Positions 5,751 to 53,642 of a stretch of 64,000 bases of DNA are shown one piece after another. The stretch spans positions 896,001 to 960,000 of the forward strand of contig NZ_CP040297.1 in the NCBI RefSeq assembly GCF_013393945.1, read 5' to 3'. The translations under genes and the position numbers were made by a program. Under the pieces are notes generated by a model. That model was not told the DNA's origin. It saw only the letters and a program-made list of their open reading frames with translations, and made no database searches. Numbering within the stretch: position 1 is the stretch's first letter; each line of letters begins with the position of its first letter. The stretch is from Nostoc sp. TCL26-01. Lineage in GTDB: Bacteria; Cyanobacteriota; Cyanobacteriia; Cyanobacteriales; Nostocaceae.

Positions 5751-6923
5751 ATGCAGATATATTTAGATTACAGCGCTACTACACCTACTCGCCCAGAAGC
5801 GATCGCCGCTATGCAAACAGTCCTCACTCAACAATGGGGTAACCCTGCCAGTTTGCATGAGTGGGGACAACGGGCAGCAACTATACTAGAACAAGCCAGA
5901 ATTCAAGTTGCTGGATTAATTAATGCGGTTAATCCAGAGTCGATTATTTTCACTTCTGGTGGTACAGAAGCGGACAACCTAGCAATTATGGGGGTGGTGA
6001 GAATGCAAACAGTACCCCAACACATAATTATCTCTAGTGTGGAACATTCCGCCGTGACTGAACCAGCTAATCTCCTAGAAAAATGGGGTTGGGAAGTCAC
6101 CCGCTTGGGGGTAAATCAAGCAGGTAGAGTCAATCCGGCAGATTTAACAGCTGCATTGCGACATAATACTGTATTAGTTTCTGTTATTTACGGTCAAAGT
6201 GAAATTGGGACAGTCCAAGCGATCGCCCAATTAGGTAAAATAGCTCAACAACATGGTGCTTTGTTTCATACTGATGCAGTGCAAGCGGTGGGACGTTTAC
6301 CTATTGATGTGCAGCAATTACCTGTAGACTTACTCAGCCTTTCTAGTCATAAATTATATGGGCCACAAGGCGCAGGGGCGCTTTATATCCGTCCTGGTGT
6401 CGAGTTAAAGCCTTTGATGGGTGGTGGTGGACAAGAAAGGGGACTGCGTTCTGGAACCCAAGCAGTACCGATAATTGCCGGTTTTGGAGTCGCCGCCGAA
6501 TTAGCAGCAGCCGAATTACCGACAGAAACACCACGTTTAATTAAACTACGCGATCGCTTATTTGCCCAGTTAGCTGATGTTCCTGATTTAATCCCCACTG
6601 GCGATTTAGAACACCGTTTACCTCATCATGTCAGTTTCTACCTAGCACAAGCTGATGGTAATAAACTCAGTGGTAAAACTTTGGTACGTCAGCTAAACCT
6701 CGCTGGAATTGGGATTAGTGCCGGTGCTGCTTGCCATAGTGGTAAACTTAGCCCCAGTCCCATACTTCTGGCAATGGGTTATTCTGCCAAAGCCGCGTTG
6801 GGAGGAATTCGCCTCACATTAGGACGTGATACCACACAAGCTGATGTTGATTGGACAGCGATGGTAATTAAGCAAGTTTTGCACAGACTGACACCGGATT
6901 TATCTTTGGTAATTGGTCAATAG
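5751..6923 (+). CDS. Cysteine desulfurase (NifS/IscS-like, PLP-dependent)
   Basis: This class V aminotransferase-fold enzyme (390 aa from the ATG at 5751) moves sulfur from cysteine to an enzyme cysteine persulfide. Visible motifs: the N-terminal IYLDYSATTPTRPEA, the PLP-anchoring SSHKLYGPQG with Lys201, the cofactor-stacking His99 in SVEHSAV, and the active-site Cys328 in SAGAACHSGKLSPSPILLAMG. A longer frame back to 5685 exists but that stretch is a repeat-like spacer (TTGTCAGTGGTTAGTAGTCAG). It is not next to nif or suf genes, so it may serve general Fe-S or thiolation work; the tRNA thiolase MnmA lies 6.6 kb away. The stop codon TAG and the last residue are supplied by the first unit of a heptamer array. 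Confidence 0.88.
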   Translation: MQIYLDYSATTPTRPEAIAAMQTVLTQQWGNPASLHEWGQRAATILEQARIQVAGLINAVNPESIIFTSGGTEADNLAIMGVVRMQTVPQHIIISSVEHSAVTEPANLLEKWGWEVTRLGVNQAGRVNPADLTAALRHNTVLVSVIYGQSEIGTVQAIAQLGKIAQQHGALFHTDAVQAVGRLPIDVQQLPVDLLSLSSHKLYGPQGAGALYIRPGVELKPLMGGGGQERGLRSGTQAVPIIAGFGVAAELAAAELPTETPRLIKLRDRLFAQLADVPDLIPTGDLEHRLPHHVSFYLAQADGNKLSGKTLVRQLNLAGIGISAGAACHSGKLSPSPILLAMGYSAKAALGGIRLTLGRDTTQADVDWTAMVIKQVLHRLTPDLSLVIGQ

Positions 6924-10164: not shown

Positions 10165-10688
10165 CTATAGCTATCCCTGATTGACAAAGTAAGGATTTTT
10201 CCTAGCACTGATTACTAATTAACTATAATAATTTAGTCAAAATAGCTCAAAGTAATGCTTTTTTCTCTAAAAACACCCGAATTTTGGTCTTAGCAGACTA
10301 GTTATGTTAAGGGAAAACATCTTTGGTAATTTTTAGCGCTTAGGTTAGTGCTGAAAATAACCCCTACTGCTTCTGCTTTAACCCTTCTCTGGCAGAGATT
10401 TCCCGTTTAACATGAAAATTTAGCCTATTTTGTATGTTAGATGTTGTTGATATTTTTACACCAATTACTAAGATTTATTTTATACTTTACTCTTGATCTC
10501 ACAAAAACAACCTAAGTAGTCAATGGTCATTAGTCATTAGTCAATAGTCATTAGTCAATGGTCAAAAGCTTTTTTCCTGTTACTTGTTACCTATTCCCTG
10601 TTACCTGTTACCTGTTACCTGTTTTAGGAATCAATGCGGATGGCTATGTATCTTGCAAAGCTGGTAATTAGTCTTAACGGATAAAACA
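10165..10688. other. Gene-free spacer with heptamer repeats
   Basis: No coding sequence is apparent in these 524 bases between two divergent genes. From about 10517 to 10565 there are GTCAWTR units, and from about 10577 to 10623 a run of CCTGTTA units. The remainder is AT-rich and should contain the promoters of both neighbours; the + strand gene follows GGATAAAACA directly. Confidence 0.7.
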
Positions 10689-49006: not shown

Positions 49007-49047
49007 TTGACTGAAAAAAATGTAGAGGTTAGGTAACACAACCTAAC

Positions 49048-49155
49048 CTACTTCTTCCAAGGCAGCTTAGTACCCATTTCTGTTAATGCCGAAAAAACAA
49101 GATAGAGAATAAGTAAAGACACACCTGCCAAAAAAGCCAATAAATCATTATTCAT
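49048..49155 (-). CDS. 35-residue single-span membrane peptide downstream of the divergent psbA
   Basis: The minus strand from ATG 49155 encodes MNNDLLAFLAGVSLLILYLV then F-S-A-L-T-E-M-G-T-K-L-P-W-K-K and a TAG. That is one transmembrane helix with a basic, Trp-containing tail. It begins 58 bp after the psbA stop on the same strand; a 29-nt hairpin (49178-49206) lies between. The size and shape fit a low-molecular-mass photosystem subunit or assembly peptide, but it matches no subunit I can name. No clear ribosome-binding site. Confidence 0.5.
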   Translation of the reverse strand: MNNDLLAFLAGVSLLILYLVFSALTEMGTKLPWKK

Positions 49156-49213: not shown

Positions 49214-50293
49214 TCATGCAACAGGCATCACAGGAATAGTTTGACCACTAGACAACACTAAAGGAAAATTATGCACATTAGGAGCGTGCATAGCAACTAT
49301 GCCTAGATTAGCACGATTTAGTAAATCTGCATCTGTTCTAATGACATCACCTCGACTGTCTAAAACTGCATGATGGAAATTAAAACCATTGAGATTAAAC
49401 GCCATCACACCTACACCCAATGCTGCAAACCAAATACCAATTGTCGGTAATGCTGCCAATAAGAAGTGGAAAGAACGGTGATTTCGACTACCTAAACTGG
49501 GAACAAGTAAACGTCCCAAGAAACTGTAGTGTCCTGCTAAATATTTATAGGTGAATTTTGGTTGACCAAGTTGATATCCAGCATTAATTGATTCATTGTC
49601 ATCAGTTTGCCGAATCAGAGTTGAAGTCACCAATGAACCGTGCAAAGAACTCAATAAAGCACCACCAAATACCCCTGCTACTGCCAGCATATGCAATGGG
49701 TGCATGAGAATATTATGATCAGCTTGAAAAGCCAGCATAAAGTGAAAAGTACCCGCTATACCCAGAGGTAAACCATCAGCAAAGCTACCTTGTCCAATGG
49801 GGTAAATCAGTAAAACAGCTGTAGCCGCAGCCGCAGGTGCAGAGAACGCCACCGCAATCCCAGGACGCATTCCCAGACGATAACTCAATTCCCAAAGTCT
49901 GCCTAAATAACACCAAATACCAATCAAAAAATGCAGCACAATCAACTGATAAGGGCCGCCATTATACAACCATTCATCCAGCGATGCGGCTTCCCAAATA
50001 GGGTAAAAATGTAACCCAATAGCAGCAGATGTAGGCACAACGGCGGCACTAATCAAGTTGTTACCATCCAACAGCGCACCCTTAATTGGTTCACGAATAC
50101 CCTCCATATCTACGCTGGGTGCAGCAATGAAAGCCAAAATAAAACAGATAGTAGCGGCTAGCAAAGTGGGAATCATGAGAACGCCAAACCAGCCAATGTA
50201 AAAACGATTTTCTGTGCTGGTAATCCTGGCGCAAAATCTATCCCACAAACCGAAGAAATCAAATTCTTGTTGACGTTGAACAATGGTACTCAT
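49214..50293 (-). CDS. psbA: Divergent photosystem II D1 protein ('rogue'/sentinel type)
   Basis: This 359-aa protein has the D1 fold throughout, including [38 protein letters not shown] and [19 protein letters not shown]. Kept residues (canonical numbers): TyrZ Tyr161, Asp170, His190, chlorophyll/iron ligands His118, His198, His215 and His272, plus His332 and His337. Changed residues: Glu189 to Asp (FQADHN), Glu333 to Ala and Arg334 to Pro (MHAPNVHNF), Asp342 to Val, Ala344 to Ser, pheophytin-site Gln130 to Leu (GRLWELSYR), and the quinone-site block 264-268 (GSRNH). Several Mn4CaO5 ligands are therefore gone and water oxidation is unlikely. It lacks the Gln130-Asp131 pair linked to chlorophyll f synthase. 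It is third in a four-gene operon. Confidence 0.93.
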
Positions 50294-50355: not shown

Positions 50356-50886
50356 TTAAGTAACTGGAACTGAGGATGTTTGTACAGGGGTATCTGTAGT
50401 TACAGGAATTTTTCCTTGGACTGTCAAAACAGAACAGGGGGCATGATGCAAGACATAATTGCTAACGCTACCAAGTAAAAATTCACTCAATCCATTGAGT
50501 CCGCGACGACCTAAAATAATTAAGTCAGCGTTCCAACTACGGGCTATGTCACAAATTATCCGACTAGGATCGCCAAGTTCTTGGGTAAAATCAGATGTAA
50601 CACCTTGAGTGATCGCTTGATTATTTAGTAATGTCAAAAAATCAATTCCCTGTTGTTTTAAAGTGTCCCATTGCCCTACGTAATATTCCATGTTATGACT
50701 TTGAGAAGTCCCATAGGTACTCTGGGTTTCCATGACTGAAGCATCTAGAAAATCATTATCAAAAGGTGAAATAATGTGTAGCAGCAACAATTCAGCGTTG
50801 GTGGCTGTGGCTAAAGATAAAGCTTTTTCAAACACTTGGTAACCAACTTCTGAGTTGTTCAGGGCAACCAAAATTTTGTTAAACAT
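50356..50886 (-). CDS. Universal stress protein (UspA family)
   Basis: The 176-aa protein starts FNKILVALNNSEVGYQVFEKALSLA. It has the nucleotide-binding signature G-x2-G-x9-G-S (GRRGLNGLSEFLLGSVS, about 138-154), so it belongs to the ATP-binding subgroup. A short tail rich in Val and Thr (about 165-176) follows. It lies 40 bp after the PEP-synthase-like gene and 62 bp before the divergent psbA, on the same strand. Universal stress proteins often accumulate during energy limitation or low oxygen; that would suit the neighbours but is inference. Confidence 0.88.
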   Translation of the reverse strand: MFNKILVALNNSEVGYQVFEKALSLATATNAELLLLHIISPFDNDFLDASVMETQSTYGTSQSHNMEYYVGQWDTLKQQGIDFLTLLNNQAITQGVTSDFTQELGDPSRIICDIARSWNADLIILGRRGLNGLSEFLLGSVSNYVLHHAPCSVLTVQGKIPVTTDTPVQTSSVPVT

Positions 50887-50926: not shown

Positions 50927-52666
50927 TCAAAAATGATGATTATTGGATTTGAAATGACTACGTGAAGCTTGATTACAAATACTAATTTTGTGTCCATTTT
51001 CTTGAATAGTAGCGATCGCTTTAGCCATCATCCGCTTCACAGCTTCATCTCGTTCGTAAAATAAATGGGCTAATATTTCCGAATCCCGGTTTAATCCTGG
51101 TGGAGTCTGGAAGCAAATAGAAAAATCATCAAATACTTGACTAAATTCATCTCTTAGTTCCACATTATTAGGTAACTCACTCATTACGTAGACTTGTAAG
51201 CCGTTTTCTCCTCGCACTAATCCATATTTTGCCATTTCTATTAATACCCGTCGTCCGGCATCGGGAGTATGACAACAGGGCAGCATTAAAATAATATTAG
51301 TTAAACCCATCTCATCTCGTACCCGTTTGATTGCCTGACATTCTAGGGCGAAGCTTTGGCGGTAACTTATAGGATTTTCTGCTTGTGACTCAAACTGTTT
51401 AACATTAAAATCAGAGAGGAAAACAGCTATAGTTTTAGGATAAAAAGCAGCTGCGATCGCTCCCAGACTTTGAGCTAGTTGATCAACAAAAAACTCGACT
51501 TTATCTTCATCATTAGCTGTTAAATCAACACTTAAGTCAAAAGCTGCTTCGGGGCTACCCAGATTGATCATAATTTGGGTACGTTTACTGGGTATTTTCT
51601 CTAAAAAAAAATCCTGGATATCGACATTTTTTGTCTGATGCAACTGAACTTTTCCTGAACTTGCTTGGACGATAAAAAGTTCATTACTGACACCATCTTT
51701 AGCCCATGCAATATCCATCGGTGTATAAACACCATGCACTTGAGAATAGTGTTCTTCAATGATGCAAGCCCAGTGTGCTAGTTGCAGAATTTCTTCATCA
51801 TTGAGGGTAAATTCTTGCCTCGCTGGAGGTGTAATAGAGCCATTTACCTCATCAACTATCTTGACTTGTTGTGTACCTAGTCGCTTGTCAATAATGGGAC
51901 GATATCCCTGTTTTAATGTTGGTTTAAATACTAAATACTCATCGGCGGCGTTAACTGTGCTTAAACTGTAAGCGGTAATTAAAGCAGCATCTTTAAAACC
52001 TGTTTCTGTATCAACAGAGAACATGAAACCAAATGCTGCTAAATCAGAACGCACCATTTTTTGAATACTGATTGATAAAGCAACATTTAATTGATCAAAG
52101 CCATTGATTTGGCGATAAGCAATGTCACTATCAGTAAAAATGGTCGCCAAACATTGATGACAAGCCTCAAGCACAGCTGGTAGCCCTTGGACATTGACAT
52201 ATGTTACTTCTTGACCAGCATCAGATAGATTTTTACCTATAGTACTAGAACCAACGACCACATCTATATTCTTGCTGTATTCTTGGCAGAGGTTAGCGTA
52301 AGCTTGAGCGATCGCTGTTTGTAATTCTATCGGAAAAGGGGTTTGCAATATTAACTGCCTAGCTTGAACACCACATAAGCGCAAATTCTGCCTATCTTTC
52401 ACATCTAAATCAGCAAAGAGCTTTCTTAGTTTTGCTTCTAAACCTGTTGCAGTCATGAAGTATTTATAAGCATATGTAGTTGTCGCAAATCCCATCGGAA
52501 CTTTTACACCTTTGCGTCTTAGCTGTTGAGTTATTTCTCCCAAAGAAGCATTTTTTTCTCCAACTAAAGATATATCTGCAATTCCCACTTGGTTTAAAGG
52601 TAAAACCAAGGGTGCTTCTCTGGCGACTCCCTGTTCTTGATATGGATTTAGCAAGATTTCTACCAT
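50927..52666 (-). CDS. PEP synthase-like protein lacking the phosphohistidine domain (probable pseudoenzyme)
   Basis: The 579-aa protein aligns with phosphoenolpyruvate synthase (usually about 790-820 aa). The N-terminal ATP-grasp part is recognisable (LNQVGIADISLVGEKNASLGEI, VPMGFATTTYAYKYFM, NVALSISIQKMVRSD, MDIAWAKDGVSNELFIVQA), but the VRSSA loop reads VVGSST (Arg to Gly139) and the following loop is shortened. The swivelling phosphohistidine domain with its catalytic G-G-x-T-x-H is absent: about 30 residues join the two halves. The PEP-binding barrel keeps TQIMINLGSPEAAFD, FALECQAIKRVRDEMGLTNI and a Cys in SICNQAS. It has lost the G-F-R-G arginine loop and the N-D-M-T-Q block. Catalysis of pyruvate phosphorylation seems impossible. 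It is first gene of the operon with the stress protein and divergent psbA. Confidence 0.87.
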   Translation of the reverse strand: MVEILLNPYQEQGVAREAPLVLPLNQVGIADISLVGEKNASLGEITQQLRRKGVKVPMGFATTTYAYKYFMTATGLEAKLRKLFADLDVKDRQNLRLCGVQARQLILQTPFPIELQTAIAQAYANLCQEYSKNIDVVVGSSTIGKNLSDAGQEVTYVNVQGLPAVLEACHQCLATIFTDSDIAYRQINGFDQLNVALSISIQKMVRSDLAAFGFMFSVDTETGFKDAALITAYSLSTVNAADEYLVFKPTLKQGYRPIIDKRLGTQQVKIVDEVNGSITPPARQEFTLNDEEILQLAHWACIIEEHYSQVHGVYTPMDIAWAKDGVSNELFIVQASSGKVQLHQTKNVDIQDFFLEKIPSKRTQIMINLGSPEAAFDLSVDLTANDEDKVEFFVDQLAQSLGAIAAAFYPKTIAVFLSDFNVKQFESQAENPISYRQSFALECQAIKRVRDEMGLTNIILMLPCCHTPDAGRRVLIEMAKYGLVRGENGLQVYVMSELPNNVELRDEFSQVFDDFSICFQTPPGLNRDSEILAHLFYERDEAVKRMMAKAIATIQENGHKISICNQASRSHFKSNNHHF

Positions 52667-53040
52667 AACTAATCTGCAAATTTCTGAGATATATATCTCA
52701 CACTTATGTTTATAGAAAGTTAATTTGAGGATCTTGTGAGGATAGAATTTTTAATATATTTGCAAGTAATTACAACAAACTTAGTTGAGAAATATTAAAA
52801 AAAATTGCTCATTATGAGTTTCTTCACAAAATCCTCATATTGCCCAACTATTTTTAAGATAGAAACCCGTGAGGTGAATCACACAACAAGGACATAAAAA
52901 TCTCGATTACCCAACTCTTTAGTCTCTAACCACCACTCTCTTTTTCAATTAAAGATACAAAATTTTCCCCGCTTACACGGTTTGCAAATGAATTTAATGA
53001 TGTAGTACAAACGCTCTTTTGCAAAAGGATTTTAGATATT
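52667..53040. promoter_or_regulatory. Divergent promoter region of the PEP-synthase-like operon
   Basis: These 374 bases have no gene. A perfect 16-bp palindrome TGAGATATATATCTCA at 52685-52700 lies 19 bp upstream of the operon's first ATG, well placed for a repressor site or leader hairpin. The rest is AT-rich. The opposite direction would drive the zinc-ribbon peptide gene at 53041. Confidence 0.5.
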
Positions 53041-53292
53041 ATGATTAGCTGCCCTTGCTGTTCTGGTTTACTTTTACCACACATACGTGGTTCCGAAGTT
53101 CATTGGTTTTGTCGCCACTGCTGGCAAGATATGCCAGTATTCTCTCTACAAACTTCTGTCTCTCTAACTGAAGTCATTACAGGAAAATTGTCTTGCAGAT
53201 TACAAAATCGAGAACAAGCCGATGTCAATAATTACATTGCTAAACGTCACACCATAACTAGATGGAAAGAATTAGAAGATATTCCCGCTTAA
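53041..53292 (+). CDS. Small zinc-ribbon protein
   Basis: The 83-aa protein begins MISCPCCSGLLLPHIRGSEVHWFCRHCWQDMP, two CxxC-type knuckles (Cys4/Cys7 and Cys24/Cys27) about 17 residues apart, with His13 and His21 between: a small zinc ribbon. The remaining 50 residues are polar and uncharacterised. Such peptides are frequent in cyanobacteria, and their partners are unknown. It diverges from the PEP-synthase-like operon. Confidence 0.7.
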   Translation: MISCPCCSGLLLPHIRGSEVHWFCRHCWQDMPVFSLQTSVSLTEVITGKLSCRLQNREQADVNNYIAKRHTITRWKELEDIPA

Positions 53293-53420: not shown

Positions 53421-53642
53421 TCAGTCTTCTTCCCAATCTTCGTGACTCAACAAATCAATAATTCTATCTCTGAGTAGAAATTCATTTCTTTCTAACTCTA
53501 GTTCAAATGCTGGCCAGTCGCGATTAGGAATATATCTACAAAGAGTATAGATTGATTGTTGACGGTTAACAAGCCCTTTAGAGATGAGTTGACGTGCTTC
53601 ATCCTTGATAACCTCAATGTCATATTTAACAGCAGTATCCAT
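53421..53642 (-). CDS. DUF4327 family protein
   Basis: The 73-aa protein reads YDIEVIKDEARQLISKGLVNRQQSIYTLCRYIPNRDWPAFELELERNEFLLRDRIIDLL, the full DUF4327 pattern, including the RQQ-I-Y-T-L-C-R-Y-I-P core. The family is restricted to cyanobacteria and has no known function. The single conserved Cys34 could be a redox or metal site. It has its own terminator. Confidence 0.8.
   Translation of the reverse strand: MDTAVKYDIEVIKDEARQLISKGLVNRQQSIYTLCRYIPNRDWPAFELELERNEFLLRDRIIDLLSHEDWEED

Follow-up and report, generated by a model that had tools for sequence, protein, structure and literature searches.

On the reverse strand at positions 50,927 to 52,666 of the window (the whole stretch of 64,000 nucleotides analysed, from the 7.39 Mb genome of the cyanobacterium Nostoc sp. 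TCL26-01, of heterocyst type judging by gene content and relatives), an ORF of 579 codons encodes a protein derived from PEP synthase that has lost the phosphohistidine domain. The explanation which we favour, with about even confidence, is that this protein is a lineage-specific pseudoenzyme descended from a stress-type PEP-synthase paralogue and held under weak selection at the level of its fold, most likely for protein contact. The frame is open throughout, without stop or frameshift. Residues 33-347 match PPDK_N (E 3e-72) and residues 433-567 match PEP-utilizers_C (E 2e-9), while a domain search of the ORF for PF00391, the mobile phosphohistidine domain, was negative and the corresponding region is deleted. 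The score against the PEP-synthase family TIGR01418 (483 bits) falls below the cut-off of 739.75, so that the protein no longer matches the full-length family; common ancestry and domain order are nevertheless apparent from synteny and 68% identity. In comparison with PpsA (TIGR01418; Neisseria PDB 2ols, E. coli PpsA), the ATP-grasp half is still followed by the barrel half in unchanged order, as in a direct descendant, and identity to intact cyanobacterial orthologues over common residues is 64-68%. However, the phosphohistidine domain, barrel strands 2 and 8 and nearly all catalytic and metal or substrate residues are gone. The absence of PF00391, the synteny and the motif losses bear out the original prediction of a PEP-synthase derivative without its phosphohistidine domain and without catalysis.

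The ancestral gene can be recognized from its neighborhood. Of 12 congeners, 11 have a complete ppsA of ~820 AA at the corresponding place, in the order DUF4327 gene, small ORF, ppsA, usp. Both upstream syntenic markers are present in the window: an ORF of 83 AA (53,041-53,292, forward strand), which adjoins ppsA in the congeners, and a DUF4327 gene of 73 AA (53,421-53,642, reverse strand). The remaining congener (G147) lacks this paralogue, while a second ppsA is kept in all 12. Over shared residues the congeners are 88-99% identical among themselves whereas the 579 AA protein is 66-68% identical to each of them, indicating a long branch and a lineage-specific loss. The 579 AA architecture was not encountered in the sampled genomes of the family (193) or of the order (391), nor did a query spanning the junction return a second case from the latter; the form is known from one genome. 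A contig scan returned a single distant intact homologue, and the short ORFs retrieved from other genomes correspond to contig ends, stops, frameshifts or truncations. Broken orthologues (80-85% identity) occur elsewhere in the family, with a frameshift in G104, an in-frame stop in G014 and a truncation in G161 (loci L117, L119 and L120), which shows that the paralogue is dispensable.

Alignment with full-length orthologues reveals nine internal deletions of 9, 3, 15, 21, ~390, 126, 27, 36 and 12 nt. All are multiples of three, an outcome with a probability of approximately (1/3)^9 = 5e-5 if the frame were irrelevant. The 9-nt deletion (junction after codon 149, 52,219/52,220, reverse strand as for all junctions below) removes the three residues ASF of the nucleotide site. 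The 3-nt and 15-nt deletions together remove 1+5 AA of the AYGLGENVVQGAVNP loop (GLGENVVQG loop) and the 21-nt deletion a further 7 AA. The phosphohistidine domain (~123-130 AA) disappeared with the ~390-nt deletion (after codon 348, 51,622/51,623). In the barrel half, the 126-nt deletion (after codon 379, 51,529/51,530) eliminates 42 AA (SIPNDGVGLARMEFI...) comprising the GLARMEFI segment, strand 2 and a PEP-binding Arg; that of 27 nt (after codon 422, 51,400/51,401) the nine residues NEYANLLGG; that of 36 nt (after codon 433, 51,367/51,368) the 12 AA IGWRGASRYYDP including the GxRG loop; and that of 12 nt (after codon 517, 51,115/51,116) the GSND tetrapeptide of the metal/PEP site. The C-terminus is also ~33 AA shorter, without the final barrel strand and helix. 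A sequencing deletion or frameshift was considered as the cause of the missing domain and rejected: every gap is a clean codon multiple and none requires a frameshift or an assembly deletion.

Substitutions complete this picture. The ATP-site Arg of VRSSA is replaced by Gly139 (52,250-52,252, reverse strand) and the Mg-ligand Glu of DIEW by Ala320 (51,707-51,709, reverse strand), both seen in the orthologue alignment; the QARP Arg has become Ser336, the Arg of VRLSDF (SDF) has become Phe416, the GLGE Glu is substituted and both barrel Arg residues are gone. Of the E. coli-type residues R511, R578, E680, N703, D704 and C751, only two persist (E497 and C564 here), together with the phosphate-loop Lys38 and the QARP Gln334. 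The ligand roles of these residues are those which we take to be established for PPDK and PpsA. Losses of the VRSSA Arg, the GFRG loop and the NDMTQ block had already been noticed, but the damage is wider and extends to barrel strand 2, the last strand, two acidic residues of the ATP site and the NEY segment. With these ligands, catalytic residues and domains missing, the sequence leaves no room for catalysis by the known PEP-synthase mechanism, and ATP-Mg or PEP-Mg would probably not be bound strongly. The protein is an enzyme homologue whose catalytic motifs have gone, which is one of the traits of a pseudoenzyme.

The structural predictions are less clear-cut. AlphaFold, supplied with an alignment of 18 sequences, gives a poor model of the 579 AA protein (pLDDT 67, pTM 0.51), whereas an intact homologue modelled with the same sequences reaches pLDDT 82 and pTM 0.81. 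In the predicted structure, the ATP-grasp half resembles ATP-binding domains (Z ~26), among them HpeI of Rhodococcus (PDB 9goj) and the ATP domain of rifampin phosphotransferase (5hv6); the latter however has a working ATP site whose residues are lost here. What is left of the barrel can be superposed on PpsA C-terminal domains with Z 15-17 over ~190 residues. The expectation that the folds remain therefore holds for the ATP-grasp half, which models well, but less so for the barrel since by sequence it lacks two of its eight strands; an eight-stranded barrel deprived of strands 2 and 8 might not fold.

For the shared codons, a branch codon model estimates omega (dN/dS) at 0.27 on the branch leading to the 579 AA ORF, compared to 0.067 for the orthologues; both omega=1 and omega equal to the background are rejected (2dlnL ~92), although the estimate depends on a saturated synonymous length and the branch length is uncertain. 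Fixing this length to that of the neighboring usp, whose own omega is normal, raises omega to 0.58 and is 24 lnL units worse. Simulated neutral evolution with 240 substitutions leads to ~9 expected stops in the ORF, where none is observed. Where 19 orthologues all agree on a residue, change has affected 36-38% of the positions in active-site motifs, compared to 20% of the others (p 0.0007-0.004), a contrast which weakens to p 0.06 when sites close to deletions are excluded. Invariant residues of the N-terminal helical subdomain have changed less (12% vs 29% elsewhere, p 0.004), and where invariant sites did change, the new residues are a little more conservative than expected from single-step neutral change (p 0.03). 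The idea that all constraint has gone was set aside on the basis of the motif/non-motif and N-terminal contrasts, both of which are modest. Nevertheless, residues invariant in the enzyme have changed about as often as variable ones, or more, which indicates that the constraint is weak; the protein seems to be under weak selection.

The genomic context is also preserved. The promoter region retains the direct repeat TCCTCACAA-N2-TCCTCA and a -10 region matching that of the congeners. This box (52,726-52,742, reverse strand) is conserved upstream of the congeners' ppsA and of many psbA4 genes, and a second, inverted copy with one mismatch lies at 52,821-52,837 (forward strand). Exact copies occur three times in the genome: upstream of the 579 AA ORF, of a second usp and of an orphan gene of 417 AA. 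In locus L177 the box lies at 6601-6617 and 10667-10683, and a 1277 AA OmpR-type hybrid regulator is divergent from the second usp. When up to one mismatch is allowed, 17 of the 34 psbA4 genes examined carry the box in the 400 bp preceding them, compared to 0/34 for a reversed control. The ppsA-usp pair, the second usp, the orphan gene and these 17 psbA4 genes can be considered a putative regulon with a common box.

A co-directional universal stress protein gene, usp (50,356-50,886, reverse strand), follows 40 bp downstream of the ORF and is syntenic with ppsA in the congeners. Another 62 bp further lies psbA4 (49,214-50,293, reverse strand), encoding a rogue or sentinel D1 (E189D, E333A, D342V, A344S) of the non-oxygen-evolving photosystem type. 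This D1, encoded right behind usp, lacks Mn-cluster ligands. Unlike many of its relatives, psbA4 has no promoter box of its own here and, given its proximity to usp, the 579 AA ORF apparently heads an operon composed of the ppsA derivative, usp and psbA4. A scan by consensus only places a terminator-like hairpin at the end of the unit (49,026-49,049, reverse strand) and no terminator-like site between the three genes. Full-length ppsA, usp and psbA4 occur together in five other genomes (G048, G065, G093, G071 and G097).

These observations can be read in several ways. Because of the ppsA/usp/psbA4 linkage, the promoter and the open frame may serve the genes behind, and the main competitor of the pseudoenzyme is thus an operon leader that is translated but has no other use: the enzyme would be dispensable and its amino acids nearly free, and stops and frameshifts would be purged since translating the first cistron shields or boosts the expression of usp and psbA4. 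We regard this as possible, though not probable. It agrees with the compact co-directional unit and its single terminator-like site after psbA4, with the boxless psbA4, and with the near-equal rates of change of conserved and variable residues; a branch 22% neutral and 78% enzyme-like would average to the observed omega, and the promoter may persist only for usp and psbA4. The unequal rates of change between motif and non-motif invariants, and between N-terminal and other invariants, are however not predicted for a leader that is free to vary. Moreover the ppsA-usp gap varies among congeners, which argues against tight coupling. Cyanobacteria are not known to possess Rho, so that polarity would lack its commonest cause here.

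An ordinary decaying pseudogene whose frame survived by chance, or an assembly artefact, appears very unlikely. The paralogue is indeed dispensable, being absent from G147 and broken in several other genomes, and the GC3 of the ORF has fallen to 0.275 from 0.37, but the nine in-frame deletions, the lack of stops where ~9 were expected and the rejection of omega=1 contradict this reading; for most of the branch, neutral decay can already be dismissed, and the syntenic context is clean. Neither a disrupted frame nor a neutral omega was found, whereas true broken orthologues show a frameshift, a stop or a truncation. By these measures the gene is not in ordinary decay, in agreement with the earlier opinion that it is no ordinary pseudogene: the frame is intact, omega is below 1 and the promoter is conserved. 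The dN/dS comparison suggested at that stage thus rejected neutrality, while the suggested structural comparison with PpsA gave matches for the residual barrel on a model of low confidence. The original prediction went further and proposed selection for nucleotide or pyruvate/PEP binding, that is a metabolite sensor or scaffold binding ATP/AMP or pyruvate/PEP without turnover. This reading, too, appears very unlikely. The ATP-grasp half is recognizable, and K38, Q334, Glu497 and Cys564 persist. However, nothing is left of the VRSSA and QARP Arg, the GLGE and DIEW Glu, both barrel Arg, the GxRG loop or GSND; the ATP-Mg and PEP-Mg ligands were lost with the catalytic residues, and invariant active-site residues were lost most. 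Stretch 130-200 of the ATP-grasp half has diverged further than any other segment still present (58% identity to its own congeners vs 98% among them). Since the ligand residues are gone, the claim of retained binding is not supported, and the protein is unlikely to have kept an affinity for ATP, pyruvate or PEP.

A distinct phosphohistidine protein could in principle complete the truncated enzyme. This was rejected: a PF00391 search of the genome found no stand-alone phosphohistidine protein, as a split PEP synthase would require, and the profile matches solely within large multidomain proteins, namely the second ppsA, a 765 AA PPDK/PpsA-like protein, a 964 AA acyltransferase/PPDK_N fusion and pyruvate kinase. 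The 964 AA fusion (L186, 2780-5674) combines a glycerol-3-phosphate acyltransferase domain, PPDK_N and a C-terminal phosphohistidine domain. The second ppsA is an ORF of 1236 AA in which an intein with splicing and LAGLIDADG domains splits the phosphohistidine motif. This housekeeping-type gene (G000:C1:435355-438906; L052 7320-11030) carries the ~400 AA intein at GGRT/CHAA, and ppsA frames of 1208-1259 AA recur among other genomes of the family.

With frame, promoter and operon intact, the ORF looks like a pseudoenzyme gene rather than an ordinary broken gene. The sequence shows that the ~820 AA enzyme of the genus was stripped of the phosphohistidine domain, of two barrel strands and of most residues that bind ATP-Mg and PEP-Mg, solely through in-frame deletions and substitutions, with the promoter and the downstream genes left in place. 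According to this explanation, the loss would have come after demand for the catalysis of this copy had ended, PEP-synthase activity presumably being kept by the intein-bearing second ppsA. The translated product may still be held weakly to a foldable form and would act, if at all, without chemistry through contacts with other proteins; it might, for instance, associate with the remaining PpsA or titrate it, or play a structural part in the stress operon common with Usp and the sentinel D1, though the partner is a guess. Pseudoenzymes are well known as a class (PMC10211241) and include barrel proteins such as PDX1.2 (PMC6829848). As in those cases, a homologue without catalytic residues coexists with an active paralogue, but PDX1.2 is conserved in a clade and has demonstrated biological roles whereas the 579 AA protein comes from one genome and its proposed function is deduced. 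The sentinel D1 (PsbA4) offers a further parallel, as a second catalysis-deficient paralogue with the operon and promoter family in common; unlike the PEP-synthase relic, it is widespread and experimentally studied (PMC9640542). The titles and abstracts searched describe neither a PEP-synthase pseudoenzyme nor, for the promoter box, a case of this kind.

A bolder and rather doubtful extension is that the pseudoenzyme was recruited into a sentinel-D1 stress operon, both dead proteins being expressed from one conserved promoter and the relic serving as a non-catalytic regulator, for instance a dominant partner of PpsA, while photosynthesis is switched off. Provided that the protein is produced and folds, it would be a well-documented case in which chemistry is lost from an enzyme whose frame and promoter persist, observed inside a single genus where intact sister copies and ordinary broken copies provide natural controls. 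The common box, for its part, connects the sentinel D1 gene with PEP synthase and a stress protein and thereby suggests a testable regulon for photosystem shutdown.
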